From an uncultured Alistipes sp. (GTDB lineage Bacteria > Bacteroidota > Bacteroidia > Bacteroidales > Rikenellaceae): a stretch of 64,000 nucleotides of DNA. The stretch covers positions 20,289 to 84,288 of the forward strand of contig CAOJSG010000002.1 of NCBI GenBank assembly GCA_948442615.1, given 5' to 3'. The notes under the pieces are model-generated. The model was not told the origin of the DNA. It was given only the letters and a program-made list of their open reading frames with translations, and ran no database searches. Below, in pieces: positions 1-19,084 of this stretch. The position numbers and the translations under genes were made by a program. Position 1 is the first letter of the stretch. The number at the start of each line of letters is the position of its first letter.

Positions 1-252
1 ATCGGTGTGGACGCGGAAACCACGCATTCCGTTGCCGATATCACCAGACTTCCGCGTGCGATTCGCCGAGTATTGTATATGAAGACTTACGAATGCGAAT
101 TGCCGTTGAAGCATCCGAAGTATATACAGGCAGATTATGCTTATTGGAAGAAGGCGCAAACCCTTCTTAGGGGCAACTGGTTCGTGAGAACGTTCCAGAT
201 ACGCAGAATCGAGGCATTGTTATACAGAATATTCCCGGCGTTAGGTAAATGA
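1..252 (+). CDS. C-terminal fragment of an unidentified protein in the capsule locus (5' end outside window)
   Basis: Frame is open from base 1 to the stop at 252 and abuts the next capsule gene; no family recognised. Confidence 0.55.
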   Translation: MGVDAETTHSVADITRLPRAIRRVLYMKTYECELPLKHPKYIQADYAYWKKAQTLLRGNWFVRTFQIRRIEALLYRIFPALGK

Positions 253-253
253 C

Positions 254-1204
254 ATGAGCAGTCCCAAAGAAAGATACATATTCATCGACATACTTAAAGG
301 CATCTCCATTCTGCTGGTAGTGTATGGGCATATTATCCCCGGATCCATCCCCTTGTTCACCGAATATGCCGGTATTTTCAGAATGCCCTTGTTCTTTTTT
401 GTAAGCGGTGTTCTGTTCAGTAATACGAGATACCAGAATAACTTTAAAGAATTTTTGTACAAGCGGTACAAAGGTTTGGTGATTCCGTTTTTCTATTTCA
501 GCATAATAGTCGCACTCGGATATTTTTTTATCGAGGATGATTACCGTGCTTTTATCTTCAAGTTGGTCACCTGGGGATGGGGCGGATATGCCTTGTGGTT
601 TATCCCCGTTTTGCTGGGGTCGCAAATCATATACTATGCCGTTTGTAAGCTGCCTCCGTATGTCCGTCTGATTTCGATCGTATCGCTGGGTATCCTGAGT
701 TTCTTGTCGAGCAGGTATATCGGTTATATACCCTATAACCTGTGCCTGTGTCTGTGCGGCGCATACTTTTTCGGTATGGGTAATCTCTGCAAAAAATATT
801 TGTCGTTCACGAAAAAGTGTACGGGCGGCATTCCGATTATAATTTTCGTGTCGGGTTTCGCAATATCGTTGATCTACTTGTTGTCGGATAGGCAACCCCA
901 GTGGTTTATCAATGACATCCCGTCTTTGGTCTTCTATGTGGCGCCTTTGGGATCGATCGCATGCCTGGCCGTGATAGCCTTGCTTATCGAGAGGGGGGGG
1001 GTATCCGTAATACACAGATTCTTCTCCGTGTGCGGCAGACAGAGCTATATCATCCTTGCATTCCATCAAATCATTTGTATGATAGCCCAACGATATGTCC
1101 CGTCGAAAATCGCGATCATGATCATGATCGTATCGCTGGCATTCCTCGTGTGGTTTATCCCTAAATATCTGCCTTGGATGTTGGGCAAGTCTAAAGCGCA
1201 ATGA
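254..1204 (+). CDS. Acyltransferase family 3 membrane O-acyltransferase (capsule modification)
   Basis: N-terminal FIDILKGISILLVVYGHI motif, multiple TM segments, AFHQI near C-terminus; contains a G9 tract at 993-1001. Confidence 0.85.
   Translation: MSSPKERYIFIDILKGISILLVVYGHIIPGSIPLFTEYAGIFRMPLFFFVSGVLFSNTRYQNNFKEFLYKRYKGLVIPFFYFSIIVALGYFFIEDDYRAFIFKLVTWGWGGYALWFIPVLLGSQIIYYAVCKLPPYVRLISIVSLGILSFLSSRYIGYIPYNLCLCLCGAYFFGMGNLCKKYLSFTKKCTGGIPIIIFVSGFAISLIYLLSDRQPQWFINDIPSLVFYVAPLGSIACLAVIALLIERGGVSVIHRFFSVCGRQSYIILAFHQIICMIAQRYVPSKIAIMIMIVSLAFLVWFIPKYLPWMLGKSKAQ
993..1001 (+). repeat. G9 homopolymer tract inside acyltransferase CDS
   Basis: Direct read: GAG AGG GGG GGG GTA (9 consecutive G). 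Confidence 0.97.
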
Positions 1205-2700
1205 ATCAGATTAGAACGGGTGCAATAATATCCTATGTGGCGTTGTTCCTCAACATCGTCATAGGATTGTTGTATATTCCATGGATGATAAACACGATAG
1301 GCAAAGCGGATTACGGACTTTATACGCTCGCGATGTCCGTTATTTCGCTTTTCGTCTTCGACTTCGGATTGGGCAGCGCCATCACTCGTTTCGTGTCCAA
1401 GTTCCTGGCCGAGGGCAGACAGGACAAGGTCGACTGTCTTTTAGGCATGGTTTTCAAATTATACCTTCTGGTCGATTTGGTCATCCTGCTCGGTCTTGCC
1501 GTCATCTATTTCTTTCTGCCTTCGATCTACCATGGTCTGACTCCGGAAGAGATGGCGAACTTTAGGATCGTGTACATCATCGCCTCCATGTTCTCCGTCA
1601 TTTCTTTTCCTTTTATTCCGCTGAACGGCATCATTACCTCATACGAGAAGTTCATCCAGCTCAAATCCTGCGATCTGATCCACAAGCTGATTATAGTCGG
1701 ATTGATGACCGCCTGTTTGCTTTTGGGCGGAGGCCTGTTCTCGCTCGTTATCGTAAACTCCGTTGCGGGTATTATTATTATCGTTTTGAAATTATGCGTG
1801 CTGGGCAGGGTGCGAATCGCCGCTATCCAGTGGCGTTACTGGGATAAAGCACTGCTTCGCACCGTATTCGGTTTCTCTGTGTGGGTGACGGTGATACAAC
1901 TCGCTCAGCGTTGCATATTCAATATCGCGCCGTCCATTCTTGCCGTATTTGCCACATCCACCGCTATCACGATACTTGGTATCGCGATTTGCCTCGAAGG
2001 TTACACATTCAGTTTCGCCAGCGCCATCAACGGAATGTTCCTTCCGAGAGTATCGCGTATGATCGCCAATAATGATCGTGATGAAATCCTGAAACTGATG
2101 ATCCGCATCGGCCGAATTCAGATTTATATTATTGGTCTGATGTGCGTCGGGTTCATTTGCGTCGGGCGTGAATTTATCCGGATATGGCTGGGCGATGGGT
2201 ACGAAGAGGTGTATGCCTGTGCACTGCTCATCATCCTTCCTTCATTCTTGCAGCTCCCGCAGGAGATCGGCAGTACGACTGTCGTTGCCGAAGGAAAAGT
2301 CAAGCTACAGGCATACGCATTCATGATCATGGCTGCCCTGAATCTGGCGTTCGCCTATCCTCTCACAAAATTCTGGGGAGTGCAGGGGCTGTGCACCTCC
2401 ATTATGATAGCCTATGTGGTTAGGACGATTCTCATGGACGTAATCTTTTACCGTGAGGTGCACATTAATGTATATCGGTTTTTCCGCGAGTCGTACTTGC
2501 GCATACTGCCGTCTTTAGTTATCGCGACGGCAGCGTCTCTTTTGATAAATATGTTCATTCATTACGAAGGGTTGGCCGGCTTTATTGCCAAGAGCATCGC
2601 GTGTGTTCTCGTCTATGCCGCTTCTGTATGGTGTATAGCGATGAATGCCGATGAAAAACAGTTGTTTGCCGCACCGGTAAAACGAATATTTATAAGGTAG
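1201..2700 (+). CDS. Oligosaccharide flippase (Wzx/MATE-like)
   Basis: About 500 aa polytopic protein, N-term GAIISYVALFLNIVIGLLYIPWMINTIGKADYGLYTLAMSV typical of polysaccharide flippases. Confidence 0.88.
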   Translation: MNQIRTGAIISYVALFLNIVIGLLYIPWMINTIGKADYGLYTLAMSVISLFVFDFGLGSAITRFVSKFLAEGRQDKVDCLLGMVFKLYLLVDLVILLGLAVIYFFLPSIYHGLTPEEMANFRIVYIIASMFSVISFPFIPLNGIITSYEKFIQLKSCDLIHKLIIVGLMTACLLLGGGLFSLVIVNSVAGIIIIVLKLCVLGRVRIAAIQWRYWDKALLRTVFGFSVWVTVIQLAQRCIFNIAPSILAVFATSTAITILGIAICLEGYTFSFASAINGMFLPRVSRMIANNDRDEILKLMIRIGRIQIYIIGLMCVGFICVGREFIRIWLGDGYEEVYACALLIILPSFLQLPQEIGSTTVVAEGKVKLQAYAFMIMAALNLAFAYPLTKFWGVQGLCTSIMIAYVVRTILMDVIFYREVHINVYRFFRESYLRILPSLVIATAASLLINMFIHYEGLAGFIAKSIACVLVYAASVWCIAMNADEKQLFAAPVKRIFIR

Positions 2701-2704
2701 GAAG

Positions 2705-3811
2705 ATGTGGTTGCAATTATTCTTGATGGCCTTGGCTTATTTGGTAATGACAACTTACCAGAGGCGGGGCGATACTTCGGTTAGCCGGCATAGATACGTT
2801 ACATTCTTAATATGGGTTCTCGTCCTGCAATCGGCTCTGCGCCATCTCGATGTCGGTGTCGATACAGCCAGTTACTGCCGTGATTTTGAATATACGCGGG
2901 ATTTCAGAACATGGGACGTTATCTGGCAGAACTTCTATGACGTATATGTTCAGGGAGAAGGCAAAGATGCCGGCTATTGGCTGTTGATGAAAGCGTTCAG
3001 TACCGTATGTCCTTCTTTCAGAATATATCTGTTTTGTGTAGCCATCTGCTTTTTCGTCCCATTTTACAGGTTGGTGGAGAAAAAACTCACCTCGCTGAAA
3101 CAATTGTACATGTCCTTTTGCGTGTACCAGGTGATGTTCTACAGTTTCTTCTCGATTACAGGAATAAGACAGACAATAGCCACTATCGCCACATTTTATT
3201 GCGTTAAGTTCATAGAAGAAAGAAAACTATGGAAATTCGTCGCAGTATTGGTCCTCGCCGGCTTTATCCATAAATCCGTATTCTTGTTCCTCCCGTTCTA
3301 TTTCATATTGAAGTATGCTAACAGTCGGGTCGTATTGCTCGGTTCATTGTGTTCGCTTCCGTTCGTATTTGGAGTGGCTCGCCAATTGGCTACGTTTATG
3401 GTCGATATTTCGGGTGCCGAGACATACAGAATGTATGCGGAATCCGAAATGGAGACAGGTGGCGCCGCGAACTTTCTGGTATTCATGGTTGCCGCGGCGG
3501 TAATGACCCTTATCGCTAAATACAAGAATCCGGACAAGGTGTCAGACCTGCTGACATGCGCAATGGCATTGGCTGTATTTTTTACCCCTATGATGTGGGT
3601 AGATACCTCATTGATGCGGGTAATCCAATATTATTCCATTTTTACCGTAATTGCGATACCGTTGTCGATTGATTGTATCAGCTCGAATCCGGAAACGAGA
3701 AGGCAGTTGTACATTGTCCTAATCGTCGTATTCTTGTTGACTACGATCCGGCACAATTATGATTATGCATTCTTCTGGGAGGAGATGCAACTTGAACAAC
3801 AATATCTGTAA
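2705..3811 (+). CDS. EpsG-family / Wzy-like polysaccharide polymerase
   Basis: Polytopic 368 aa; GVDTASYCRDF and SITGIRQTIA motifs typical of EpsG family. Confidence 0.82.
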   Translation: MWLQLFLMALAYLVMTTYQRRGDTSVSRHRYVTFLIWVLVLQSALRHLDVGVDTASYCRDFEYTRDFRTWDVIWQNFYDVYVQGEGKDAGYWLLMKAFSTVCPSFRIYLFCVAICFFVPFYRLVEKKLTSLKQLYMSFCVYQVMFYSFFSITGIRQTIATIATFYCVKFIEERKLWKFVAVLVLAGFIHKSVFLFLPFYFILKYANSRVVLLGSLCSLPFVFGVARQLATFMVDISGAETYRMYAESEMETGGAANFLVFMVAAAVMTLIAKYKNPDKVSDLLTCAMALAVFFTPMMWVDTSLMRVIQYYSIFTVIAIPLSIDCISSNPETRRQLYIVLIVVFLLTTIRHNYDYAFFWEEMQLEQQYL

Positions 3812-3813
3812 AT

Positions 3814-5049
3814 ATGCGGCTCTCTCAAATTAACGTAAATTACGGCTTCGGCAGTACGGGTATAATCGTCAAGGATCTGCAGACGTTGTGCAAACACGAG
3901 GGGATAGATTGCGAGGTCGTATTTTCCGAAGCGCGAGAAGATGTGCTTTCCGATACATACCATATGGGCAACGTTGTCAGTAACAAACTGCATGCGTTAT
4001 TGTCCCGTATCAGCGGCAAGCAAGGGTATTTTTCGAAGATCTCCACCTGGCTGCTCCTGCGCCATTACGATAGCTACAAGCCGGATATTATCCACCTGCA
4101 CAATCTTCACAGTTGCTACATCAGTTTGCCGATGATACTGAAGTATGCAGCTCGAAAGCATATCGCCGTAGTGGCGACCCAACACGACTGCTGGCTCTAC
4201 ACCGGAGGATGTTGCCACTACACCAGCACCGATTGTTTCAAGTGGAAGGAAGCGTGCGGCGACTGCCCTGCCCGCAGATCGGTCAATGCGCTCCTGTTCG
4301 ACGGGACAAAACGGATGCTCGCAGACCGGTACCGCCTGTTCGGCGGTATCAGGAACCTTACGGCCGTCGGCGTTTCCCGGTGGATCGCGGACGAAGCCCG
4401 GCAGTCGGTCTTCAAGAATGCGAATTGCATTGCGATTCATAACGGGATAGATACCGAGTTTTTCCGTCCTGTACGCAAAGAAGAGTTCGCGGGGTTCGAG
4501 CGTCTAAGAAGTTTAAGGGCATTGAAAGAAACGAATCCCGGCATATTCCTTATTCTCGCACCGTCCAACAAATGGTTCCTGGATATCAATCGAGAGACGT
4601 TCGAACACTTTGCCTGCCGCATGACGGAGGACATGCGTATGATATTCATTGGCAATGGCGTTGATAAGAGCCGTTTGACCGACAAGATGATCGATGTCGG
4701 GTTCGTTTCGTCCCGCGAGGAGATACGCGCCATTTACAATATGGTCGATGTTATGGTCAACTGCACACGCGAGGAGTCTCTCTCGCTGCTCAATGTCGAG
4801 GTACAAGCCTGCGGTACCCCTGTCGTCACCTATTCCAATACCGGCGTAAAGGAGACCGTTGACGGCAAGTGCGGCTTTGCGGTAGAGAACGGAAACCCGG
4901 CGGCCGCATGGAATGCTATGTCGCAGATTAAGGAGCGGGGAAAAGCCGAATATTCGGACGCTTGCCGGCAATGGGTGAGGAAGGAGTTTGACAAGGATAC
5001 CAATTACAAGAAATATATCGAATTATACAAGTCGATAAGTCGATCGTAA
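3814..5049 (+). CDS. Glycosyltransferase family 4
   Basis: MRLSQINVNYGFGSTGIIVKDL; DIIHLHNLH; C-terminal EESLSLLNVEVQACGTPVVTYSNTGVKE motif. Confidence 0.9.
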   Translation: MRLSQINVNYGFGSTGIIVKDLQTLCKHEGIDCEVVFSEAREDVLSDTYHMGNVVSNKLHALLSRISGKQGYFSKISTWLLLRHYDSYKPDIIHLHNLHSCYISLPMILKYAARKHIAVVATQHDCWLYTGGCCHYTSTDCFKWKEACGDCPARRSVNALLFDGTKRMLADRYRLFGGIRNLTAVGVSRWIADEARQSVFKNANCIAIHNGIDTEFFRPVRKEEFAGFERLRSLRALKETNPGIFLILAPSNKWFLDINRETFEHFACRMTEDMRMIFIGNGVDKSRLTDKMIDVGFVSSREEIRAIYNMVDVMVNCTREESLSLLNVEVQACGTPVVTYSNTGVKETVDGKCGFAVENGNPAAAWNAMSQIKERGKAEYSDACRQWVRKEFDKDTNYKKYIELYKSISRS

Positions 5050-5213
5050 GATTCAATTTATGCTCGGCGGCATCGAGGATCCGATATCGGGGACTACCCA
5101 TATCGCTGTCATGATCCCGGTTGCAGCGATTGCAGCGGCCGATCTCTCGAGTTCGACATGGTTGCGCAAGGAGACATAAGAAAAAATAGTTTCCAACATA
5201 TACTATTATCAAC

Positions 5214-6278
5214 ATGGTAAAAGATAAGATTTCGATCATTGTTCCTGTTTATAATGTGGAACCATTTCTCCGCGAAAGCCTGGATAGTCTGGTTAATCAG
5301 ACCTACAGGAATATCGAGATTATCGGCATTAATGACGGCAGTCCCGATCATTGTTTGGATATTCTTAAAGAATATGCGGCGAAAGATGACCGCATCGTAA
5401 TTCTCGACAAGAAGAACGAAGGCGTTGCAGCCGCCCGTAATGACGCAATGAAAGTCGCTACCGGCGAATACTTCATGTTTGCCGATGGGGATGACTGGCT
5501 CGAGTTGAACGCCTGCGAACGTTTGATGCAGGTAATGAAAGAGCATAATCCGGACGTCATTATGTTCTCGTATTTCCGCGAGTATGCCGACAAAACTTTG
5601 ACTAAGGACAATATTTTTCCTAAGGATTTCATCATCTTTGATGAGAATGAGTGTCGTCAGCTCCACCGCCGTCATGCGGGTGCCATCGGCGAAGAACTGC
5701 GTCATCCGGAGAACTTCGATGCCATCTGTTCTCTCTGCACCAAGCTGTTCAAGGGCGACATCATTCGCGAACATAGCGAGATTCGTTATATCGACAACAA
5801 GATCATCGGCACATACGGCGACGGCCTGATGAATATGTTCTACTATAAGTATGTTAACAAGGCCGTCTTTATCGGCGACCATCTGTATCACTATCGCAAG
5901 ACGAACGAGAACTCCGTCGTAACTGCATACAAGAAGGATTTCCAGAAGCGTTGGAATAACCAGTTCGACATCATTCAGCAGTATATAGACGAGAACCACC
6001 TCGGCGACGATTTCAGGGAAGGTCTTCGTAACCGTATTGCAGTCAGTTCAATGGGACTCGGATTCAATGCAATCCACGCGAAGACGAATTTCCGGAGCAA
6101 GTACAAAGAGCTTAAGGCCGTTCTCTACGACAAGCGTTATCACGAGGCCGTGAAGGGCATAGAGTTACGTTTGATGCCTCTGCACTGGAAGATCTTCTAT
6201 AGTGCATGCCGCTATAAGATGGTATTGATGTATTATTTCCTTTCTTGTGCGATACGTTATTTGAGAAGTAAGAAATGA
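5214..6278 (+). CDS. Glycosyltransferase family 2
   Basis: KISIIVPVYNVEPFLRESLDSLVNQTYRNIEIIGINDGSPD and DGDD motif. Confidence 0.93.
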   Translation: MVKDKISIIVPVYNVEPFLRESLDSLVNQTYRNIEIIGINDGSPDHCLDILKEYAAKDDRIVILDKKNEGVAAARNDAMKVATGEYFMFADGDDWLELNACERLMQVMKEHNPDVIMFSYFREYADKTLTKDNIFPKDFIIFDENECRQLHRRHAGAIGEELRHPENFDAICSLCTKLFKGDIIREHSEIRYIDNKIIGTYGDGLMNMFYYKYVNKAVFIGDHLYHYRKTNENSVVTAYKKDFQKRWNNQFDIIQQYIDENHLGDDFREGLRNRIAVSSMGLGFNAIHAKTNFRSKYKELKAVLYDKRYHEAVKGIELRLMPLHWKIFYSACRYKMVLMYYFLSCAIRYLRSKK

Positions 6279-7282
6279 AACCGAATCAAAGAAATTTATC
6301 CTTTGACCTGTTGAGAGCCGTGGGTCTTTTGTGTATTATATTGGCCCATGTAAATCCACCCGATTGGCTCTTGCAGCTTAGGTGTTTTGATGTGGTAATG
6401 ATGGTTTGCATATCGACCGTATCCTATACCGAATACTCAAAGCCCAAACCGTATTTGCGATATTTGACAGGACGCATAAAGAGGCTGCTGCTTCCTGCGT
6501 GGGAATATATTCTGTTGTTAGGCGTTGTATTTTACGTAATAGCATTGATGACGGGAACCTCTACACCATATCCTTTGAAGACACTGGTGATAGGTATATT
6601 CACGCTCAGTAGTGTCGGGTACCTGTGGATAATTCGTGTATTCTTATATAACGCATTCATAAACCCATTTATACCAAAGATAGCTAAAATTAATAGGGGG
6701 GGTGCTTGTTTGATAATTCTTTACGCGTTGTACTCCGTTGTTCGGGATTTTTGCATGGACAGCAGCGTCCCGCATTTGGCAACTCTCTCCGAGGCATCTT
6801 TCCTTGATTTTTGGTCTTACGGATTAATTGCGGTCGCGGCTTATCTGCTTTATCATCTAAAAACGAAGAGTCTTATCTATGTTATTGGAGGCATTGCCTT
6901 TGCGTTGATTGCAATAGTTTGTATTGATGGCGGCTTCATCCCCAATACATTCAAATATCCGCCTGCATTGCAGTATGTATTATGGGGGTTGCTGGTAGTG
7001 AGTTCGTCATTCCTCCTTACAAGGTTGTATCCTATAAGGAAGTTGCCCGCATTTTTGACATTTATCTCTGCAAATTCGATGTGGGTGTATTTCTGGCATC
7101 TCATACCTGTAAATTTCATTGCGCATTACAGGAGTATGTGCCCGCAACTGCTTGTGGATTCATGGTGGATGAAATGGATTTCGATCGTGCTTTTTGCTAC
7201 GTCCGTGACATACATCCAGAATATGATAGTAATATATTTAAAACGAATAAAACATAAAGTTTTAAGTTATGCAAGAAATTAA
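6275..7282 (+). CDS. Acyltransferase family 3-like membrane protein
   Basis: SFDLLRAVGLLCIILAHVNPP N-terminus, polytopic, WVYFWHLIPV; contains a G7 tract. Confidence 0.75.
   Translation: MKPNQRNLSFDLLRAVGLLCIILAHVNPPDWLLQLRCFDVVMMVCISTVSYTEYSKPKPYLRYLTGRIKRLLLPAWEYILLLGVVFYVIALMTGTSTPYPLKTLVIGIFTLSSVGYLWIIRVFLYNAFINPFIPKIAKINRGGACLIILYALYSVVRDFCMDSSVPHLATLSEASFLDFWSYGLIAVAAYLLYHLKTKSLIYVIGGIAFALIAIVCIDGGFIPNTFKYPPALQYVLWGLLVVSSSFLLTRLYPIRKLPAFLTFISANSMWVYFWHLIPVNFIAHYRSMCPQLLVDSWWMKWISIVLFATSVTYIQNMIVIYLKRIKHKVLSYARN
6696..6702 (+). repeat. G7 homopolymer tract inside acyltransferase CDS
   Basis: Direct read: AAT AGG GGG GGT GCT. Confidence 0.95.
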
Positions 7283-8537
7283 AATTTGCGTAATCGGTCT
7301 TGGTTACGTAGGCTTGCCCTTGGCGCGCCTTTTCTCGACAAAGTACAAGACGGTCGGCTTCGACATGAACCAGAAGCGCTGTGAGGCTCTTATGGGTGGC
7401 CACGATGCGACGCTTGAGGTCTCTGACGAACTCTTGCAGGATGCCATCGACAACCATGGCTTCAGATGTACTTCAAACCTCGAGGAGGTAAAGGATTGCA
7501 ACTTCTACGTTGTCGCTGTCCCCACTCCCGTCGATTCGGATAATCGTCCGGATCTGAGACCTCTTTGGGGCGCATCCGAGACTGTCGGCAAGGTCATCGG
7601 CAAGGGCGATATCGTGGTTTACGAGTCGACCGTTTACCCGGGTGTTACCGAGGAGGAGTGCCTTCCTGTAGTCGAGCGTGTGTCCGGCCTCAAGTTCAAT
7701 GAGGACTTCTTTGCTGGTTACTCTCCCGAGCGTATCAATCCGGGCGACAAGGAGCATACCGTAGAGAAGATCAAAAAGGTTACTTCTGGTTCTACGCCGG
7801 AGATTGCAGACATCGTGGATGGCGTTTATAATTCGGTTTTGATAAATGGTACCCACAAGGCTCCGTCGATGAAGGTCGCCGAGGCTTCGAAGATCATCGA
7901 GAACAGCCAGCGCGACGTTAACATCGCCTTCATGAACGAGCTTGCCAAGATCTTCAATGCGATGGGGATCGATACCAACGACGTGATCGAGGCCGCTTCC
8001 ACGAAGTGGAACTTCATCAAGCTGAAGCCCGGTCTCGTAGGCGGTCACTGCATTTCGGTCGATCCGTACTACCTCATTCAGAAGGCTCAGGTTTATGGCG
8101 TGCTTCCCCGCATCATGTCGTCAGCCCGCCGTCTCAATGACGGCATGGGCGCATATGTCGCCAACCAGACCATTAAGTGCATGAACAAAAAGGGCGTGAT
8201 GGTCAAGGATGCGAAGATCCTTATCCTGGGTATCACCTTCAAAGAGAATTGTCCGGATCTGCGCAATTCGAAAATCGTGGACATTTACACGACCCTCGAG
8301 GAGTATACCTCCAACATTTCCGTTTACGATCCTTGGGCTGATTCGGCGGTCGTTAAGCACGAGTACGGGATCGATGTCACGAACACGCTTCCCGCCGAGA
8401 AGTTCGATGCCGTTATCCTCGGTGTCGCCCACAAGCAGTTCCTGGAGCTCGACGTGCGTTCGCTGGTTCGGGACGGCGGTGTGATTTACGATGTCAAAGG
8501 GCTCCTGCCCCGAGCTATTGTTGACGGACGTCTCTAA
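7269..8537 (+). CDS. Nucleotide-sugar dehydrogenase (UDP-glucose/GDP-mannose dehydrogenase family, TviB/WbpA-like)
   Basis: KICVIGLGYVGLPLARLFSTKY, KLKPGLVGGHCISVDPYYL. Confidence 0.93.
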   Translation: MQEIKICVIGLGYVGLPLARLFSTKYKTVGFDMNQKRCEALMGGHDATLEVSDELLQDAIDNHGFRCTSNLEEVKDCNFYVVAVPTPVDSDNRPDLRPLWGASETVGKVIGKGDIVVYESTVYPGVTEEECLPVVERVSGLKFNEDFFAGYSPERINPGDKEHTVEKIKKVTSGSTPEIADIVDGVYNSVLINGTHKAPSMKVAEASKIIENSQRDVNIAFMNELAKIFNAMGIDTNDVIEAASTKWNFIKLKPGLVGGHCISVDPYYLIQKAQVYGVLPRIMSSARRLNDGMGAYVANQTIKCMNKKGVMVKDAKILILGITFKENCPDLRNSKIVDIYTTLEEYTSNISVYDPWADSAVVKHEYGIDVTNTLPAEKFDAVILGVAHKQFLELDVRSLVRDGGVIYDVKGLLPRAIVDGRL

Positions 8538-8791
8538 AATTAAGGTCAGGCAGCTCTGCAAGTAGTCATCCGCAAGCCTGTTTGGGGCTTGACGGAATGA
8601 TGTGGTGCGATACCACGGGCTGCTGCAAAACGGGATCATGAAGGCAGGGTTCTACGTTTAGCTTGCTATTCACGGGCGCATAGGGCACTTGCTATATGGA
8701 ATGATTCCTTTTCGGCACTTTGGCATATCTTATTTGATTCGTCTATGTTGCTGTGATTCATAGGTTGGAAACGAAAATAACATAAATATAT

Positions 8792-9859
8792 ATGAAACCC
8801 CAATTAAGTGTTATCATACCGGTATTCAAGGTTGAGGATTATCTGGAAAGATGCGTGAAGAGTGTGTTGACGCAGGATTATCGCGATCTTGAAGTAATTC
8901 TTGTGGATGACGGCAGCCCGGACCGCTGTCCGCAGATCTGCGATGAGTTGGCTGAAACGGATGAACGTATCATCGTCATCCATAAACCCAACGGAGGATT
9001 GTCTTCAGCCCGCAACGCCGGCATAGAAAAGGCGACCGGCGAGTACCTCGCATTTCTGGATAGCGACGATCAGTGGGCCGAGGGCAAACTGAAGACGCTG
9101 ATGAGCGAAGTCGTACAGTCCTCATCCGATATTGTTTTTTATGCGAGCCGCAGTATCTATGAGGATGGGGCTCTATATCAAAGAGCAGAGTCGAACTTTT
9201 TTACAGGTGTTTTTAGAACGACCGATTCTGTGAATTTATATAAAGAACTTATTGATTCGGGGAATCTACATGAGTCTGCATGTACGAAGATCGTCAAGCG
9301 CAATTTTATTCTCGACAACGGTCTGAAATTCAAAAGCGGAATGCTTTGCGAGGATACGGAATGGATGTTTAGAGTACTTCGGACTGCTGATAACGTTGCC
9401 ATATCGTCGGTTCCGTTGTTTATCTGCACGGAGAACCGCGCAGGTTCTATCACGAATACGGCATCTACGAGAAGCATTCGGGACATGCTTTCGATCATCG
9501 AGGGCTCTTTGGCATTCTACTCGAATTCCGATAGCATAACCAAACAATACGAGTTGGCGCATTGTGCATATCTGTGGTCTATCTGTGTCGGCTTGTATAA
9601 CACCATACCATCTACCCCCCCCCTTCGGCAGACGGGGGTGCGGGGCATGCCATCCACCGACAGGAAGGAAATACGAACGAGGCTGTGCGTGGTGGCAAAG
9701 TCGCTTGACTTGAATTCGCACCCGAAGTCGAGAAAGGTGAGCATGGTGTATCGTCTTTTAGGATTCCGGTTCACCGCAAATATACTTGGATTGTATTTGA
9801 AATTATTACGCAAGAACTTGGTCAATAAAAAGAAACCGGTGAATGGAAAAGAAAATTAA
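8792..9859 (+). CDS. Glycosyltransferase family 2
   Basis: QLSVIIPVFKVEDYLERCVKSVLTQDYRDLEVILVDDGSPD, LDSDDQW; contains a C9 tract. Confidence 0.93.
   Translation: MKPQLSVIIPVFKVEDYLERCVKSVLTQDYRDLEVILVDDGSPDRCPQICDELAETDERIIVIHKPNGGLSSARNAGIEKATGEYLAFLDSDDQWAEGKLKTLMSEVVQSSSDIVFYASRSIYEDGALYQRAESNFFTGVFRTTDSVNLYKELIDSGNLHESACTKIVKRNFILDNGLKFKSGMLCEDTEWMFRVLRTADNVAISSVPLFICTENRAGSITNTASTRSIRDMLSIIEGSLAFYSNSDSITKQYELAHCAYLWSICVGLYNTIPSTPPLRQTGVRGMPSTDRKEIRTRLCVVAKSLDLNSHPKSRKVSMVYRLLGFRFTANILGLYLKLLRKNLVNKKKPVNGKEN
9615..9623 (+). repeat. C9 homopolymer tract inside GT2 CDS
   Basis: Direct read: TCT ACC CCC CCC CTT. Confidence 0.97.
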
Positions 9860-11177
9860 GGTTCTGCTTTTGGTCGCAGAGCCATGGAGATCGGACGATT
9901 CCGGAGGCAATACGTTGGACAATTTCCTCGGAGGAATGGAAAACATCGAACTCGCACATGTCTTTTGCAGCGATAGCATGCCCGATAACAATATGTGCAC
10001 GCGATATTTTCAGATTCCTCAGAGCGCTGTCATACGTAATTTCCTTACCCGCCGGAAGGTGGGGCACGTGCTGACGATGGATGATATTTCGCGCGCCAAA
10101 CGGAATATGTCCGACGGGAACGGCGGCGGTGCGGTGAACAATAAGACCGGGCTGAAGGCCAAACTATTCAGATGGATCAAGAACATACGTCCGGAGGTGC
10201 TGATAACGGCGAGAATGTTCATATGGCGTTATTGCAACTGGAAAACCCCCGAACTCAGGCAGTTTATTCTCGATTTCGATCCCGATGTCGTATATGCGCC
10301 CTGTTATGGGTTTCCCCAGCATCTGGCTCTCGCCAGATACGTAAAGGAGCTGACAGGTTGCAAGATTATCACCTGGTCGGCGGACGATTGTTATTCCTTG
10401 CGCCATTTTAATCTCGATCCATTCTTCTGGGTGAATCGTTTCTGGAACCGCCGTTGTTTGAGGAAGACGTATCCTTATTATGACGAATTCTATAGCATCA
10501 GCGAGGAAGAGGCCGTGGAGTTGGAGCCCGTGGTTGGCAAAAAGATCGGGGTTTTGAGAAAAGGGGTTGATGTGCCGGAGACCTTTGTTCCGCGTGAGGT
10601 GCATAAGCCGATCCGGTTCATTTATGCCGGCGGTCTATATCTGAACAGGCACAAAAGTCTGATTGCGATTGCGGATGCACTGCGAAAACTCAATGCGGAT
10701 GGCCCTGTCAGGGCGGAACTCCATATCTATACCGGCAGTCAGTTGAAGGATAAGGATGCGAAGTCGCTGAACGACGGTACATCCGTGTTCAACCACGGTC
10801 TGATTCGCCCCGAAGAATTGTCGAAGATCTATCGGGAAAGCGATGTGGCGATTCATTGCGAGTCGTTCGACCTGAAATATCGCCTTATGACGCGTCTTTC
10901 ATTCTCCACCAAGATCATCGATTGCTTCCAGAGCGGATGCGCCATACTGGCCATCGCATGGGAAGAGCACACCGGCATGAAGTGTCTGAAGCGCGAGGAT
11001 GCCGCTATCTGCGTGACGAGCGTTAAGGACATCGAAGCGGCGGTGACCCGCATCGTCGAGAATCCGGAGCTGATAAAGGAGTATGCCATGAAGGCTTATG
11101 AGTGCGAGAAGCGGAATCATAGGATTGAAGATGTACAAAAGAAACTATATGATGCATTTGTAAGATGTAGTAAATAA
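9843..11177 (+). CDS. Glycosyltransferase (GT4-like)
   Basis: VLLLVAEPWRSDDSGGN, later FIYAGGLYLNRHKSL and KIIDCFQSGCAILAI glycosyltransferase features. Confidence 0.78.
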   Translation: MEKKIKVLLLVAEPWRSDDSGGNTLDNFLGGMENIELAHVFCSDSMPDNNMCTRYFQIPQSAVIRNFLTRRKVGHVLTMDDISRAKRNMSDGNGGGAVNNKTGLKAKLFRWIKNIRPEVLITARMFIWRYCNWKTPELRQFILDFDPDVVYAPCYGFPQHLALARYVKELTGCKIITWSADDCYSLRHFNLDPFFWVNRFWNRRCLRKTYPYYDEFYSISEEEAVELEPVVGKKIGVLRKGVDVPETFVPREVHKPIRFIYAGGLYLNRHKSLIAIADALRKLNADGPVRAELHIYTGSQLKDKDAKSLNDGTSVFNHGLIRPEELSKIYRESDVAIHCESFDLKYRLMTRLSFSTKIIDCFQSGCAILAIAWEEHTGMKCLKREDAAICVTSVKDIEAAVTRIVENPELIKEYAMKAYECEKRNHRIEDVQKKLYDAFVRCSK

Positions 11178-11182
11178 ATGAC

Positions 11183-12205
11183 ATGAGCAAAGAATATACT
11201 GGTTACTTAAAAGGTGTTGCCATTTTGCTGATGGTTTTCCTTCATCTTTTTACAAATAAGGAGGCGGATGGAAATTTGGGATTTCTGTTATCAGTTAACG
11301 ACACACCTTTAATATACTATTTAACACGGTTGTGTAATCCTGTTCCATTCTTTCTTATATTGAGTGGTTATGGATTGTATGCCATATATAGCAAATGGGG
11401 GGGGGTAAATCCCTGTAAACGAACAATCTATCTATATTTGCATTTGTGGATAATTTATCTTTTGCTCGTCCCTTTAGCTTGCTGTGTGCGACCTGACATG
11501 TACCCTGGCAATTTTGCTATTTTCGTAAAAAACGCTACCAGTTGGCAATGTTCTTACATTGGCGAGCAATGGTTCTTTCTTCCCTATGTTTTATTGATGG
11601 CATCCTCTAAATGGATTTTCAGACTATTTGATAAGGTAAACTGGTATGCGACTTTCTTGATAGGCTTGATTGTATATGGATTTTGTGTATATATGTTAAA
11701 AAGATATGGCGAAGCTACGCTGGCCGGCAATATGTTATTTTACAATATTTTTCTATCCTTTTATATGTTGTTCCCGTTCCTCCTGGGATATATGGCCAAA
11801 AAGTATCAATGGATAGAGCGCGCGAATGCTTTTGTTAATAAACGGATATGCAGCAAGCCATTTATACCAGTGACAATGCTCCTGGTTCTATGTACGATCC
11901 GTTGTTTTGTTCCAAATGCTTCTGTTGATCCGTTTTATGCTATCATATTTGTTGTACTTTTCTCTATGATTTCGGTACCAAAAGTATTAGGTGCTGTTTT
12001 ATCGTATCTCGGAAAACATTCAATGAATATTTGGTTAATACATACTTGGTTCAGCACTCGTCTTTTTCATGATTTTTTGTACGATACAGTACATTATCCC
12101 ATAGCAATGTATGTGAGCCTAATGGTGGTTAGTTTAGCAATTTCTCATATTGTGGAGATGCTCTACAAACCAATAGGAAAATACGTTAATAAGATTAATT
12201 TTTAG
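11183..12205 (+). CDS. Acyltransferase family 3 membrane O-acyltransferase
   Basis: YTGYLKGVAILLMVFLHLF, FFLILSGYGLYAIY, HSMNIWLIHTWF; AT-rich gene with a G9 tract. Confidence 0.85.
   Translation: MSKEYTGYLKGVAILLMVFLHLFTNKEADGNLGFLLSVNDTPLIYYLTRLCNPVPFFLILSGYGLYAIYSKWGGVNPCKRTIYLYLHLWIIYLLLVPLACCVRPDMYPGNFAIFVKNATSWQCSYIGEQWFFLPYVLLMASSKWIFRLFDKVNWYATFLIGLIVYGFCVYMLKRYGEATLAGNMLFYNIFLSFYMLFPFLLGYMAKKYQWIERANAFVNKRICSKPFIPVTMLLVLCTIRCFVPNASVDPFYAIIFVVLFSMISVPKVLGAVLSYLGKHSMNIWLIHTWFSTRLFHDFLYDTVHYPIAMYVSLMVVSLAISHIVEMLYKPIGKYVNKINF
11397..11405 (+). repeat. G9 homopolymer tract inside acyltransferase CDS
   Basis: Direct read: AAA TGG GGG GGG GTA AAT. Confidence 0.97.
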
Positions 12206-12217
12206 CTAATAAACTTA

Positions 12218-13207
12218 ATGGAAATAGGCTCATTTATAGAGCTTCAGCTCAGGAAAGGATCGGAGTGGTATGATCAGACAACGGATATCGCAAGACTGAA
12301 TACGGCCCGCCAGGGTATCTGGCATGCGTTCAGGGTGACTGGATGCAAGCGGATATGGATACCCGTATACCAATGTGACTCGATCCGGGAGACTTTTGAG
12401 AAGCACGGTGTGGAAATGAAGTTTTATCATCAAGACCGTAACTTCAATCCTACCGACATTGCGGCAGAAGAGGACGATGCGGTATTGTTGTGCAACTACT
12501 ACGGTATAATGTCCGCGGAGAGGATGCGGTTTTTGGCTCGGACCTTCGCCCATCCGATCATCGACTGCGCTCAGGCATTCTTCTGCAAACCGTTGGAAGG
12601 CGCATTGAATGTGTACAGCTGCCGTAAGTTCGTGGGTGCTCCGGATGGCGCTTACGTCGTGGGCAAGGATGCGCACCTGTTTGTGGAAGAGTATCCGCAA
12701 TGCTATAGTTCGGATACCGCTGCCTTTTTGTTGAAACGCATCGAATACGGTTGCGAGGGGAAGGGCTATGAGGCTCGGGGGCTGAACGAGAGCCGGATTG
12801 ACCATGAGGGCTGTATGAAGATGTCGAAGCTGACTCGCGTGTTGATGGATGCGGAGGATTATGACTACAACATCAAGAAACGCAAGGAGAATTTTGCATA
12901 CGCGCATGAGTTGTTGGGGAGTATCAACCGGATCGATCCGACGATGTATATGGATGACGGGACCGTGCCGATGGTTTATCCGCTGGTGGTTGAGGAGGAT
13001 GCGTGTATCCGACGTCTGTTCGAGGCGAAGCATTTCCAGGGCCATTGGTGGAGCTATATCTGCGGGGAGCAGCCGGAGGATAGTTTCGAATACTGGATCA
13101 GCCGATATGTAATTCCCATCACCATCGACCAGCGATACGGCAAAGAAGAAATCGATTATTTGGTGAACGTAATCAGGAATCGTCCGACAGAGTCGGAATC
13201 CGAATAG
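12218..13207 (+). CDS. PLP-dependent (DegT/DnrJ-like) aminotransferase-fold protein
   Basis: PIIDCAQAF followed by NVYSCRKFVGAPDGAYVV, resembling the catalytic Lys region of DegT-like enzymes. Confidence 0.6.
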   Translation: MEIGSFIELQLRKGSEWYDQTTDIARLNTARQGIWHAFRVTGCKRIWIPVYQCDSIRETFEKHGVEMKFYHQDRNFNPTDIAAEEDDAVLLCNYYGIMSAERMRFLARTFAHPIIDCAQAFFCKPLEGALNVYSCRKFVGAPDGAYVVGKDAHLFVEEYPQCYSSDTAAFLLKRIEYGCEGKGYEARGLNESRIDHEGCMKMSKLTRVLMDAEDYDYNIKKRKENFAYAHELLGSINRIDPTMYMDDGTVPMVYPLVVEEDACIRRLFEAKHFQGHWWSYICGEQPEDSFEYWISRYVIPITIDQRYGKEEIDYLVNVIRNRPTESESE

Positions 13208-13230
13208 AAACTAAAACAATATAAAAAAAC

Positions 13231-14376
13231 ATGAACGATCAGTATAACGGGCACTTGTGCATTGTGTTTGCGCTGGAGCATTACAATCCTCTGAACATGA
13301 TTCGCGCCTTGGGGGAGAACGGCATCAATCCGGTGTATATCTCGGTGAAGAGACGCTATGAGGTGGCTACGAAGAGTAAATATATCTCGGCGCTGCATCG
13401 TGTGGATTCGGTGGAGGAGGGCTTCAAGCTGCTGATGGCTGAATACGGTCATCTGGCAGCGGAAACGGGCAAGAAGCCTTATATCGTATTCTCGGACGAC
13501 AAGTCGGTAGGGTATTTCGACGAGCGCTATGACGAGTGGAAGGACAAGTTCATTACCTATAATGCCGGCCGTACAGGTCGCATCAACGAGTTCATGGACA
13601 AGTATGAGATTCAGCAATGTGCGAAGCGCCATGGCTTCAATGTGCTGGATTCGTACGTAATCGGCAAGGATGACGAGCTGCCTGAGAATCTGTGGTATCC
13701 TATCATTACGAAAGATATCTCGCCTAACTCCGGCTCGTGGAAGTTCGACGTGTATATCTGTCAGAACGAGCAGGAGCTGAAGGAGGCCGTCCGGAAGATC
13801 GAGAGTCCGCTGATTATGATTCAGCACTTCGTAGACAAGCAGAACGAGATGGCTCTGGAAGGTTACACCATCAACAAGGGCAAGGAGATGCAGATCGTGA
13901 CCGAGATGAAGTGGAAGTACCTGATCCAAGGATACTATAGCCCTTATCACGACGTGAAGATGTTCCAGGACAAGGAGATGGAGAAAAAACTTCGGGCGAT
14001 GTTCGAGGAGATCGGGTTCGAAGGCGTGTTCGAGGTCGAATTCCTGATCGACAAGGACGGTACGTACTACTTCATGGAGACCAACTTCCGGGCTTCGGCC
14101 TGGAATCCGACGGGCAAATTTGCGGGGATGCCGTTGCCTTACCTATGGATCAAGGGTATGGAGAACGGTGCCATCGATCCTGCCGACCGCAAGGAATTCG
14201 AGCCTTTCACCAGCATGAGTGAGGTGATAGACTACGCCAAGCGTGTGGAGGGCGGCATGTGCTCGCTGGCCGAGTGGCTGCGGGACTTCAAAGATGCGAA
14301 GTGCGTGTATATCTACGATAAGGAGGATCGGGGCCCCTGGGACGAGGTGATAAAGAACTTCGAGAGCTTCAAGTGA
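13231..14376 (+). CDS. ATP-grasp family ligase
   Basis: FEGVFEVEFLIDKDGTYYFMETNFRASAWNPTG ATP-grasp metal/ATP-binding pattern; central SPLIMIQHFVDKQNEMALEGYT. Confidence 0.82.
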   Translation: MNDQYNGHLCIVFALEHYNPLNMIRALGENGINPVYISVKRRYEVATKSKYISALHRVDSVEEGFKLLMAEYGHLAAETGKKPYIVFSDDKSVGYFDERYDEWKDKFITYNAGRTGRINEFMDKYEIQQCAKRHGFNVLDSYVIGKDDELPENLWYPIITKDISPNSGSWKFDVYICQNEQELKEAVRKIESPLIMIQHFVDKQNEMALEGYTINKGKEMQIVTEMKWKYLIQGYYSPYHDVKMFQDKEMEKKLRAMFEEIGFEGVFEVEFLIDKDGTYYFMETNFRASAWNPTGKFAGMPLPYLWIKGMENGAIDPADRKEFEPFTSMSEVIDYAKRVEGGMCSLAEWLRDFKDAKCVYIYDKEDRGPWDEVIKNFESFK

Positions 14377-15506
14377 TGAAACGGGCTTTGATGTTGGCGC
14401 CGATGGGATCGGTCCATCGACGCTTTAATAAGGCTAACATAGATGCCTTGCAGGCGATGGGATATGAAGTGGAGCTTTGCGCGAACTTCGAGAATGGCGA
14501 AGGCCCTGAGATTCATAACCGAAAGTATGCGGAGGAATGCACAAAGAATGGAATCAAGATCCATTCGATTCCGTTCGCTCGCCACAGTCTGACCGGTAGT
14601 CTGAGATGCTTGCCGCAGCTGAAGGAACTGCTCAGGACGGAGCGGTACGATTTGGTGCATACGCATACCGAAACGGGCGGCCTGTTGCTGAAACTGGCGC
14701 ATTGCGTAAAGGGGAGGACGAAGTTCTTCTATACTCCTCATGGCATGTCGTTCTGGAAGGGAAGCGGCCTGAAGTCGCAGCTGGTGTATAAGCCGCTGGA
14801 GAGATGGATCTGCTCGGGCATGGATATGAATCTGGGTATGAACCTGGAAGAGGTGGAGAACCTGCACCGCTGGAATAAGAAGACGGGGGTGTATGTACAT
14901 GGCATCGGGCTGAATGTCAGCCGTATGCGATCTCCTATCCGCAAACGTGAAGATTTGCGCGAGGAGTTCGGTCTGGCGGACGGTGATAAGTTCATAGCTT
15001 CCATTGGCGAGCTGGACGACAATAAGAACCACATTACCGTTATCAGGGCTTTGGCGCTGTTGGGCAGAAAGGATCTGAAGTATGTGGTATGCGGCGTAGG
15101 CCCGAACAGGGATATGCTGATGCGGGAGGCTGAACGTATGGGACTGAAGGACAATGTGCTATTGGCAGGATACAGAAGCGACATCCCCGATGTGTTGAAT
15201 GCTGCGGACATATTCGTGTTCCCGTCGTTTCATGAAGGCATGCCAGTGAGCGCCCTGGAGGCTATGGCTTGTGGATTGCCTGTGATCTGTTCGCAGATCC
15301 GCGGTAATGTGGATATCGTCGAAGAGGGCGAAAACGGTTATCTGTTTGCGCCTGCCGATAGTGACGCCCTTAGCCGGAAAATCGGTTTGTTGATGGATGA
15401 TGCCGACAAGCGCAAGACTATGGGGGCGAAAAACAGGAAGATAGTCGAGGATTTCAGTCTGGAGACCGTGACCGAGGAACTTAAGAGGATATATTCTATG
15501 ATTTAG
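14373..15506 (+). CDS. Glycosyltransferase family 4
   Basis: YDLVHTHTETGGLL; VFPSFHEGMPVSALEAMACGLPVICSQIRGN. Confidence 0.93.
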   Translation: MMKRALMLAPMGSVHRRFNKANIDALQAMGYEVELCANFENGEGPEIHNRKYAEECTKNGIKIHSIPFARHSLTGSLRCLPQLKELLRTERYDLVHTHTETGGLLLKLAHCVKGRTKFFYTPHGMSFWKGSGLKSQLVYKPLERWICSGMDMNLGMNLEEVENLHRWNKKTGVYVHGIGLNVSRMRSPIRKREDLREEFGLADGDKFIASIGELDDNKNHITVIRALALLGRKDLKYVVCGVGPNRDMLMREAERMGLKDNVLLAGYRSDIPDVLNAADIFVFPSFHEGMPVSALEAMACGLPVICSQIRGNVDIVEEGENGYLFAPADSDALSRKIGLLMDDADKRKTMGAKNRKIVEDFSLETVTEELKRIYSMI

Positions 15507-15507
15507 G

Positions 15508-16605
15508 ATGAAACCAAAGAGGTCCGAAGAGGTGTTCATACAACTGTTGAAGGGTTCGGTAACCGGAACGACCGGATACCGGACCTTCGAACCGTTGTCT
15601 AAAAAGGAGTGGGCGGAAGTATATCGTCTGGCGAAAATGCACGGAATGGTATCCGTGCTGATGCGAGAGCTGGAGAAATTACCGAAAGAGTCTCGTCCTC
15701 CCATGGATATGCTGATGTTTTGGTTGGGACAGGCCGCGTACAGAGAGACGACATACGGGCAACAACTGGATTTGTCGTGTGAATTTGCAGCCGCTTTGGC
15801 CAACGAGGGTGTAAAGTGTCTTGTGCTGAAGGGGCTGGCCGTGGGATCGTATTATCCGGTTGAGAAAGCGAGAGAATTCGGAGATCTGGATTGTTTCCTG
15901 GTTAAGGAGGGCGAGCTCGCCTTCAAAGAAGGCAATTCCGTCGGCAGACGGTTGGGTGCAAAGGTGGAACGATCGGGATACAAGCATACGCACATTCATT
16001 ATAAAAATCTGCTGATAGAAAACCATGAATATCTGACGAACTTCAATGGGACGAAGCAAGGAGTCGTAATTGAGAAAATCATGCGTTCGCTGGCTTTGGG
16101 AGGCGGTCACAGGCAGATCGGGGAGACCAATCTTTGGATTCCGAACGCGGAGTTCAATGCGTTGTTCTTGCTGAGGCATTCGCTGGGGGATTTTCTGGCC
16201 AATGACATGACGATAAAGGCGGTCTATGATTGGGCGGTGTTCCTGAAAGCGGAACAGAAGAATATTGATTGGAAACACCTCGGACGGTTGTTGGAGGAGT
16301 GCCGGCTGATGGCGTTCTTCGAACTGATGACAGAGGTTGCTATGACGTATCTGGGATTGGAGTTATATAGCGGAGGGATGAACATCACTTCGCATGGACG
16401 GATGGTGGATTGGCTGATGGCTGATGTGCTGGACATAGCCGTTGCGTCCGAAAAAAAGACGGTATGCGTGAAAGCGAAACGGCTGCTGGACAGGGTGAGA
16501 CGTATGGTGAAGTACCAAGGAATTGCCACTGAACGGATCTGCACGGCACTTTGGACGACGGTCAGGTATCGCCAGAATTTTGATCGAAATATGAATTTGG
16601 ATTGA
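15508..16605 (+). CDS. Nucleotidyltransferase-like protein (NTP_transf_5 family)
   Basis: Central VKCLVLKGLAVGSYYP...REFGDLDCFL motif characteristic of the family. Confidence 0.78.
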   Translation: MKPKRSEEVFIQLLKGSVTGTTGYRTFEPLSKKEWAEVYRLAKMHGMVSVLMRELEKLPKESRPPMDMLMFWLGQAAYRETTYGQQLDLSCEFAAALANEGVKCLVLKGLAVGSYYPVEKAREFGDLDCFLVKEGELAFKEGNSVGRRLGAKVERSGYKHTHIHYKNLLIENHEYLTNFNGTKQGVVIEKIMRSLALGGGHRQIGETNLWIPNAEFNALFLLRHSLGDFLANDMTIKAVYDWAVFLKAEQKNIDWKHLGRLLEECRLMAFFELMTEVAMTYLGLELYSGGMNITSHGRMVDWLMADVLDIAVASEKKTVCVKAKRLLDRVRRMVKYQGIATERICTALWTTVRYRQNFDRNMNLD

Positions 16606-16608
16606 CCT

Positions 16609-17541
16609 ATGCCGATCCTTTTTCTTCCATGGCTTCTGCTCCTGCTTTTGCCGGCGATAGCGGGGTGTGCATTGAAACGATGGCGGAAAACTGCCGCTGG
16701 CCTGCTTTTGGTCGGAATCTCGCTCAACTACTATGGATCTATCATCCCTATACGCTTTCCTGTCCATTGGGGATCTTTTGCGTCCGACTCTCGTGAAGGC
16801 CGTTTTTCCGTTCTGGCCTGGAACATACACGGCGGGGATAAGGATACGGTCAGATATGAGGCAATCGCCGATAGGATAATTGAGGCCGATGCGGATGTGG
16901 TGTTTTTGTCGGAAGTGTTTACGGAAACGGCATACGTGATGGATGCGTTGTTAGCCGACAGGTATCCTTACCGAACGACGAACTTTCAGTGGTGCGCCCA
17001 TTATTTCTATAGCAAATATCCGATAACCGATTCTGCTCAGATTGCCGTAGAGGGCGGCAATGAGGTGATTGTATGCAGCAGATTTGCGATGGGCGGTCGT
17101 GAGCTGGATATATACGGCTGCCATCTTACGAGCAATAACTGCGAGGCATCCGGTCTCGGATACCCGAATGCGAGGAACGTGGGTGGCGGGAGTTCGCTTC
17201 GGAGCTATATGAAGGGCATCGATTACGCTTCGCGGCAAAGAGCCCGTGAAGCCTGCCGAATATGCGATACGATTGCTGCCAGACCTTGCCCGCATTTGGT
17301 AATGGGCGATATGAATGACGTATGCGGTTCCGAGGCACTGAAGATTTTTGCTGGTATCGGGCTGAAAGATGCCTGGTGGCAGGGCGGCTGCGGATATGGC
17401 GCAACGATCCATCGTCCGCTGCCCTATAGAATAGATCATGTGATGTATGATGGTGGCACGAAGCTTCGGCATATCTCAAAGATCCCTGCCGATGGGTTGA
17501 GCGATCATGATGCTTTAAGGGCCGTGTTCGAATTTGAATAA
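16609..17541 (+). CDS. Membrane-anchored endonuclease/exonuclease/phosphatase family protein
   Basis: Two N-terminal hydrophobic segments then VLAWNIHGGD, DVVFLSEVF, LVMGDMNDV, ADGLSDHDAL. Confidence 0.85.
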   Translation: MPILFLPWLLLLLLPAIAGCALKRWRKTAAGLLLVGISLNYYGSIIPIRFPVHWGSFASDSREGRFSVLAWNIHGGDKDTVRYEAIADRIIEADADVVFLSEVFTETAYVMDALLADRYPYRTTNFQWCAHYFYSKYPITDSAQIAVEGGNEVIVCSRFAMGGRELDIYGCHLTSNNCEASGLGYPNARNVGGGSSLRSYMKGIDYASRQRAREACRICDTIAARPCPHLVMGDMNDVCGSEALKIFAGIGLKDAWWQGGCGYGATIHRPLPYRIDHVMYDGGTKLRHISKIPADGLSDHDALRAVFEFE

Positions 17542-17783
17542 AAGGCGATGGATATCGATTGTTTGCGATGTGCGTGGCCGCCATTGCCGGATTTTGCCGT
17601 TGTGCCGGAGAGTCTTCAGCGCTTGAATTTGGCGGTTGGCCCCCATGGATAGTCTGTCTTCGGAATGTCGCGCTCCTTGTATTCATGGGTCGATGCGACC
17701 GGTAATGTTCGCTGAGACATAGATCGGCAGGCTATTGATCGTCGTATTCCGCATAAGTATAAACAAACAATAAATAAACAGTT

Positions 17784-18461
17784 ATGAATTACCTGATTGT
17801 AGTTGCTCATCCGGACGATGAGGTGTTGGGTGCCGGTGCATCCATCAGAAAATGGTCGCAGAATGGTGACAAAGTGGATATCGCCATCTTGTGTACTGAA
17901 GCAAAGGCGCGGGCATTCCGTCCTGAGGATAACGAGCTGGAGGCCGATACGGATGAAAGCACGAAGTTTCTGGGCGTGAATAAGAAGTTCGAGGCCACTT
18001 TCCCCAACATTGAAATGAATACCGTTCCGCACCTCAAGCTGGTTCAATTCATCGAGCAGGCTATTCGTGAGAGCCAGCCGGACGTAATCATCACTCACCA
18101 TGCTGCGGATACGAACAACGACCATCTGATGACTTCGATGGCTTGCCAGGAGGCATTCCGTCTGTATCAGAGGCGTCCCGAGCAGAAGCCTCTGAGCGAA
18201 TTCTGGTATATGGAGGTGGGATCGGCGAGCGATTGGAATGTGAACAGCGCATTCAATGCTTTCCGGCCGAATGTCTATGTGGAGATCGGTAAAGAGGGTG
18301 TTGAGGCTAAAATCAAGGCGTTGAGTATGTATCGCGGTGTGATGCGTCCCTATCCGCATCCTCGTAGTGACGAGGCGATGGAAGGTCTGGCTGCCTGGAG
18401 AGGCAGCCAGGTGGGCAGTATGTATGCCGAAGCTTTCGAATGTGCGATGAGAAGAATCTGA
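17784..18461 (+). CDS. PIG-L family N-acetylglucosaminyl deacetylase-like protein
   Basis: YLIVVAHPDDEVLGAGASI and ITHHAADTNNDH motifs. Confidence 0.92.
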   Translation: MNYLIVVAHPDDEVLGAGASIRKWSQNGDKVDIAILCTEAKARAFRPEDNELEADTDESTKFLGVNKKFEATFPNIEMNTVPHLKLVQFIEQAIRESQPDVIITHHAADTNNDHLMTSMACQEAFRLYQRRPEQKPLSEFWYMEVGSASDWNVNSAFNAFRPNVYVEIGKEGVEAKIKALSMYRGVMRPYPHPRSDEAMEGLAAWRGSQVGSMYAEAFECAMRRI

Positions 18462-19084
18462 TGGATATGGGAAAGTTGATAAAAAGACTCTTTGATCTGG
18501 TGCTGGCATTGCTCCTGTTCATTCCTGCATCGTTGGTGCTGCTCTGTGGCATCATTTTCGTCAAGGTGGTTTCGCCCGAGTCCTCGCCCATCTTTAAGCA
18601 GGAGCGTGTGGGATATAGGCGCAAGCTGTTCACGCTGTACAAGCTTCGCTCCATGACCAACGAACGTGACGAGAAGGGTGAATTGCTGCCGGACGAGGCT
18701 CGACTGAAGAAGTGGGGCCGAATTGTGCGTGCCACCAATATGGACGAGTTGTTCCAGATCTGGAATATCCTGAAAGGGGAGATGTCTTTCATCGGGCCGC
18801 GTCCCATCCTGGCCAAGGAGATGCTGGTGATGACGGACGAGGAACAGGCCGAGCGCCAGTCTATGCGTCCCGGCATTACGGGGTGGGAGGCCGTACACGA
18901 AGGTGAGTCGGAAAACCGCAGACAGATGGCTGAATTCGACCTGTACTACGTGCGCAACTGGTCGCTTAAGATCGATTGGCTGGTGTTCTACAAAACTTTT
19001 CAGATCGTGCTCGGTTTCCAGCGCCCGGATGACAGCGTTCGAGCTCCGAAGATGACAGATGATCAGATCGTCGACAAGAAATGA
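18461..19084 (+). CDS. Initiating undecaprenyl-phosphate sugar transferase
   Basis: KRLFDLVLALLLF, PIFKQERVGYRRKLFTLYKLRSM, MSFIGPRPIL; ATG at 18461 overlaps the TGA of the PIG-L gene. Confidence 0.93.
   Translation: MDMGKLIKRLFDLVLALLLFIPASLVLLCGIIFVKVVSPESSPIFKQERVGYRRKLFTLYKLRSMTNERDEKGELLPDEARLKKWGRIVRATNMDELFQIWNILKGEMSFIGPRPILAKEMLVMTDEEQAERQSMRPGITGWEAVHEGESENRRQMAEFDLYYVRNWSLKIDWLVFYKTFQIVLGFQRPDDSVRAPKMTDDQIVDKK

Follow-up and report, generated by a model that had tools for sequence, protein, structure and literature searches.

A poly-G tract as a putative on/off switch of a capsule acyltransferase in an uncultured Alistipes sp. and a genus-wide excess of runs of nine G

A run of nine G inside a membrane acyltransferase gene of a capsule locus is, in all likelihood, a poly-G contingency locus. 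Through slippage in this tract, the acyltransferase would be turned on in some cells and off in others, which would then differ in the acylation of their capsule, and neighbouring tracts would do likewise for other decorations. As far as sequence evidence goes, the switch is well supported by the tract itself, by its effect on the reading frame, by a 58%-identical gene with the same tract, by frameshifted sibling genes and by an enrichment that extends across the genus. The window referred to below is the whole stretch of 64,000 nucleotides that was analysed; positions without a contig name are positions in it.

Results

The G9 tract of the acyltransferase gene

The gene (11183..12205, + strand) encodes an Acyl_transf_3 membrane O-acyltransferase of 340 aa (PF01757, E 1.7e-15) and is intact, that is ON, in the assembly. 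The protein scores 57.4 bits against a curated cut-off of 31 and matches the profile from position 6 to 323 of 326. The original prediction of a G9 tract in an AT-rich acyltransferase is correct both in position (11397..11405, +), where the recomputed frame gives codons W72-G73-G74 and the first base of V75, and in composition, the gene having 35.9% GC compared with about 45-55% in the surrounding locus and about 65% in the core genome. Recomputation of the product as a function of tract length gave 77 aa for G7, 74 aa for G8, 340 aa for G9, 78 aa for G10, 75 aa for G11 and 341 aa for G12. Gain or loss of a single G thus abolishes the product, and the null product of 'about 75 aa' expected after either indel agrees with these lengths.

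Both GGG codons of the gene sit in the tract (W-G-G-V), with none among its other glycines (18 in total). Only 0.54% of synonymous-codon permutations within the gene produced a run of at least nine (P = 0.0054), and the same type of permutation applied to 23 genes of the locus gave 0.13 expected runs of at least nine against 4 observed, which bears out the claim that nine consecutive G would be unlikely by chance. It had further been argued that the flanking stops make a clean binary switch. Both shifts do truncate the protein, but close off-frame stops after the tract are ordinary for this gene and carry little weight: at 8.7% of its positions, both frameshifts run into a stop in no more than 7 codons. 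In the 58%-identical relative described below, the same off-frame stops follow from the conserved residues V-N/K-P-C-K-R. What does speak for the proposed slippage switch is comparison, namely the same-site tract in that relative, the broken siblings, the clustering in the locus and the peak in the genus.

In a structural model of the protein (m8dee4d1fd7d2, mean pLDDT 69.7), helices are predicted at 53-72 and 76-102, with the tract-encoded residues 73-75 in the turn that joins them. A Foldseek search with this model gave no significant match, human HGSNAT ranking third (probability 0.82, TM 0.40, E 0.42), and a PDB sequence search with the acyltransferase gave no match. The conserved histidine expected towards the end of the first membrane helix is present as H21 and is invariant across 11 sequences. 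Two acyltransferases from genomes G004 and G034 (L099 and L106), 18-19% identical to the target, have a G9 tract encoding Gly-Gly in the same loop.

Further tracts in the capsule locus

Positions 1..19084 (+) of the window belong to a capsule/exopolysaccharide locus with Pfam matches to a flippase, EpsG, glycosyltransferases, a UDP-sugar dehydrogenase, acyltransferases and a sugar transferase, and this locus extends upstream of the window on contig C2 (L032). The tract at 11397..11405 is one of several in it, the others having been overlooked in the original prediction. Five tracts of nine are present, in three acyltransferases (the target included), one glycosyltransferase and one pyruvyl transferase. 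A second Acyl_transf_3 gene (254..1204, +; PF01757 E 1.2e-25) is intact and carries G9 in frame at 993..1001 (+; R-G-G-V-S). An intact family 2 glycosyltransferase gene (8792..9859, +; PF00535 E 8.4e-42) has an in-frame C9 tract at 9615..9623 (+). Upstream of the window are a polysaccharide pyruvyl transferase with G9 at C2:17436 and a frameshifted Acyl_transf_3 gene (C2:12.85-13.79 kb) with its break at the G9 at C2:13183. The first piece of this sibling covers profile positions 6-99 and, joined with the downstream frame, positions 6-320; its halves are otherwise open and the frame is lost exactly at the tract. Hence the assembly shows one tract of the locus OFF and the remaining tracts ON. 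The fourth acyltransferase of the locus, which is the third Acyl_transf_3 gene of the window (6275..7282, +; PF01757 E 1.9e-15; intact), has G7 only (6696..6702, +; R-G-G-A), a run shorter than the putative switching tracts. Outside the locus, an in-frame C9 tract is found at 43757..43765 (+) in a TonB-dependent receptor (L006 frame: PF00593 E 3.6e-15, PF07715, PF13715).

The clustering of these tracts exceeds expectation. The 27.8 kb locus has 5 tracts of nine against 0.6 expected from genome density (P = 4e-4), and G9 is present in 3 of the 4 capsule acyltransferases of the source genome, where 0.023 would be expected per gene (P = 4.6e-5). Dinucleotide shuffles of the 64-kb window gave 0.81 expected runs of at least nine against 4 observed; this test has less force, as about 65% GC prevails over two thirds of that sequence.

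Related acyltransferases

A scan of genome contigs returned one close relative of the target (L058), with 58% amino acid identity, on a contig of 35% GC. It has G8 at the same codons (K-S-G-G-V, against K-W-G-G-V in the target) and its frame is kept by the base that precedes the run, a C where the target has G; L058 is therefore no OFF allele of the target gene. Its contig (JAQVYH010000178.1, coverage 1.5) is filed as an Eubacteriales MAG, while its acyltransferase and adjoining glycosyltransferase genes are most like those of the Bacteroidales-type source locus, and the contig is probably misbinned. The target protein had no match in 60 relatives of the source genus, and a search of viral contigs returned nothing either. 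OFF alleles were found in sibling acyltransferases only and none was of the target gene itself.

Capsule-type acyltransferases of other species of the genus have tracts of G8-G10, which are in frame in genomes G004, G034, G078, G005 and G070. In the last two, the tract occupies the same site of another acyltransferase and differs in length, with G8 in one (L093) and G9 in the other (L095). The sister species G071 has an acyltransferase broken at G10, and in G023 one is probably broken at a C9 near the gene start. Across the genus, a tract lies inside the gene in 5 of 18 capsule-type acyltransferases, as opposed to none of 32 high-scoring ones (Fisher P = 0.004); the 18 had been drawn by weak score, and two chosen with a tract or truncation already noticed were left out.

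A genus-wide peak at nine

Exact run counts in 61 draft assemblies of the source genus were 428 for G7, 552 for G8, 1410 for G9 and 97 for G10, whereas 118 other draft genomes of the order had 4623 G7 and 350 G9. G9 outnumbers G7 in 54 of the 61 genomes of the genus, compared with 1 of the 118 others, and the median number of exact G9 tracts per genome of the genus is about 17. The peak at nine is absent from the only other sampled genus of the same family (5 against 12).

Other tracts of the source genome lie in TonB/SusC receptors (L006, L013, L022 and L155) and in surface proteins with DUF4988, BACON or DUF3868 domains; surface lipoproteins are also among the carriers. The presence of SusC-type receptors, DUF4988 and BACON points to the Bacteroidales. 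In the SusC/TonB receptors L022, L155, L013 and, from genome G077, L127, the tract is found inside the CarboxypepD_reg-like domain or close to its beginning, or else directly behind the signal peptide. The G9 at G000:C5:55103-55111 (1745 in L009, 1501 in L011) stands upstream of an ATG between TTTG and TAATTTTG, which are separated by an 18-base spacer. From this arrangement of Bacteroidales-type promoter elements, the tract is a candidate promoter-spacing switch.

About half of the sampled tracts in genome G077 look intergenic or non-coding by a noisy coding call, so that mutation rather than adaptation may account for part of the G9 excess. Scoring the frames near tracts by codon usage was too noisy, misplacing known genes, and was left out of the counts. 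Tract orientation in G077 is uniform over hundreds of kilobases, with 13 of 13 tracts on the + strand in C5 and, in C6, 11 on the + strand followed by 8 on the - strand. Most of the tracts in this genome (33 of 44) are on the G-poor strand, as if tied to replication direction; the source genome has no such bias. The idea that G9 follows the G-rich strand was rejected, with only 11 of 44 tracts there in G077 and 15 of 36 in the source genome. Loss of mismatch repair was also rejected as the cause of slippage, as mutS and mutL are present in the genus, scoring above cut-off in 57 and 60 of the 61 genomes, respectively.

Two assembly features were noted in passing. At G000:C21:25529-25680, G and C runs of 12-24 bases are clustered within 150 bases, possibly as an assembly artefact, and in G077 (L127, C6 at about 240.6 kb) the segment from the G9 tract onward occurs twice, on either side of an N, which is likely an artefact of scaffolding at the tract.

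Discussion

Proposed mechanism and alternatives

In the proposed mechanism, the replicating polymerase would slip on the G9 run and add or drop one G, and the gene would alternate between the full-length enzyme of 340 aa (G9, or G12) and a truncated product of 74-78 aa. Given that the gene codes for a membrane acyltransferase within a cluster for capsule biosynthesis, switching would likely leave the capsular polysaccharide acylated, probably O-acetylated, in part of the cells only. With several tracts in one locus, a single capsule would occur in combinatorial variants. We infer that slippage is frequent and reversible, and likewise the identity of the acylated substrate and of the selective agent, which may be phage, host immunity or mucus binding.

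Chief among the rivals is a neutral mutational equilibrium: a G-run copying bias of the genus would drive runs to nine in any G-rich stretch, without selected switching. We consider this unlikely as an explanation of the acyltransferase tract, although the peak at nine does hold genus-wide, apparently intergenic tracts included, and the orientation of tracts along long chromosome stretches in G077 suggests a replication-linked process. Against it, the tracts are enriched in capsule acyltransferases (the 5 of 18 against 0 of 32 above) and in the source capsule locus, the same-site tract has been retained at 58% identity in a gene that is AT-rich and has no other GGG codons, and selection would normally be expected to eliminate a neutral bias that disrupts genes. 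Neutral copying bias may thus account for part of the intergenic tracts and for the orientation in G077, but not for the acyltransferase enrichment. Protein constraint has the least to recommend it: a Gly-Gly turn would be required between two helices and its GGG codons would have arisen by chance. The tract does fall in such a predicted turn, two GGG codons suffice for the run, and yet both GGG codons of the gene are found there (P = 0.0054). Moreover, the G9 of L099 and L106 encodes Gly-Gly in the same loop, and the tracts of other acyltransferases are elsewhere in the protein.

Two further readings seem very improbable, each to a similar degree. The acyltransferases of the locus might be in the course of being lost, with G-run indels as ordinary pseudogenisation and the target merely still intact, as the one frameshifted acyltransferase among intact paralogues could suggest; but the halves of that sibling are open and break exactly at the tract, the same is seen in G071, and the majority of tract-bearing acyltransferases are in frame. 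Slippage might instead be transcriptional or ribosomal and yield a mixture of products with no change in the DNA, given that polymerase and ribosome alike can slip on homopolymers of nine. The target DNA is already in frame, however, and slippage of that kind would merely reduce the yield, whereas the broken relatives carry changes in the DNA itself. The reading that we prefer remains a switch by slippage at the level of the DNA.

Poly-G slippage as a mechanism is already known (Campylobacter, Neisseria, Akkermansia), and the apparent novelty is that a poly-G phasome would extend across a genus whose order is known for inversions. A search of the open-access literature returned no report of such phasomes in Bacteroidales, most subscription papers and all preprints lying outside the search. 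In our estimation it is evenly balanced whether the genus indeed has such a phasome, with tens of exact G9 in each genome, placed in the genes of capsule enzymes and SusC/TonB receptors and in some promoters, replacing or standing beside inversions, with MutS and MutL intact and with copying that keeps tracts sharply at nine and in certain species orients them along the chromosome. A 2025 review asks why genomes rich in phase-variable loci seem restricted to pathogens (PMC11868660). If the phasome is real, a genus outside the classic pathogens, in an order known for inversions, would make that question directly testable. Its poly-G tracts would also account for variation in capsules and receptors that matters to phage and host, and draft annotations of the genus will label switched-off surface genes as pseudogenes.

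Comparison with known systems

Campylobacter, Neisseria and Helicobacter are well-established carriers of poly-G contingency loci. Like the genus studied here, Campylobacter has tens of poly-G tracts per genome, most often nine long and located in genes that modify surface glycans, and its translational switching by ±1 shifts is what is proposed for the target. In its phasomes 53% of poly-G tracts are at nine, 26% at ten and 5% have C on the coding strand (PMC6321876), whereas in the source genus G10 accounts for about 4% of the runs that are 7-10 long, and the coding strand carries C at several tracts; the source genus also belongs to another phylum and has mutS and mutL.

Akkermansia muciniphila, again from another phylum, is similar as a gut commensal with G9 in an exopolysaccharide gene and a long G/C run in a capsule acyltransferase. 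The G9 of Amuc_1413 gains a G, which truncates the product, and varies in length among strains (PMC13055324), and the acyltransferase Amuc_2098 has C10 (PMC3048395). In contrast to the target, however, the Amuc_2098 repeat is at the gene end and without demonstrated switching, and long homopolymers, of whichever base, occur in 17 genes of that genome.

In Bacteroides, probably of the same order, phase variation affects capsules and SusC/SusD-type surface proteins as well, through invertible capsule promoters and SusC/SusD inversions (reviewed in PMC11868660). There, recombinases invert DNA and whole operons are switched, whereas in the source genus tract slippage would act inside single modifying enzymes. 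Meningococcal porA, finally, has a poly-G promoter tract that controls transcription by spacer length (PMC3639595). In porA too a poly-G run switches expression, and the tract at G000:C5:55103 is likewise placed between promoter elements; the porA switch is transcriptional, whereas that of the target acyltransferase would be translational.
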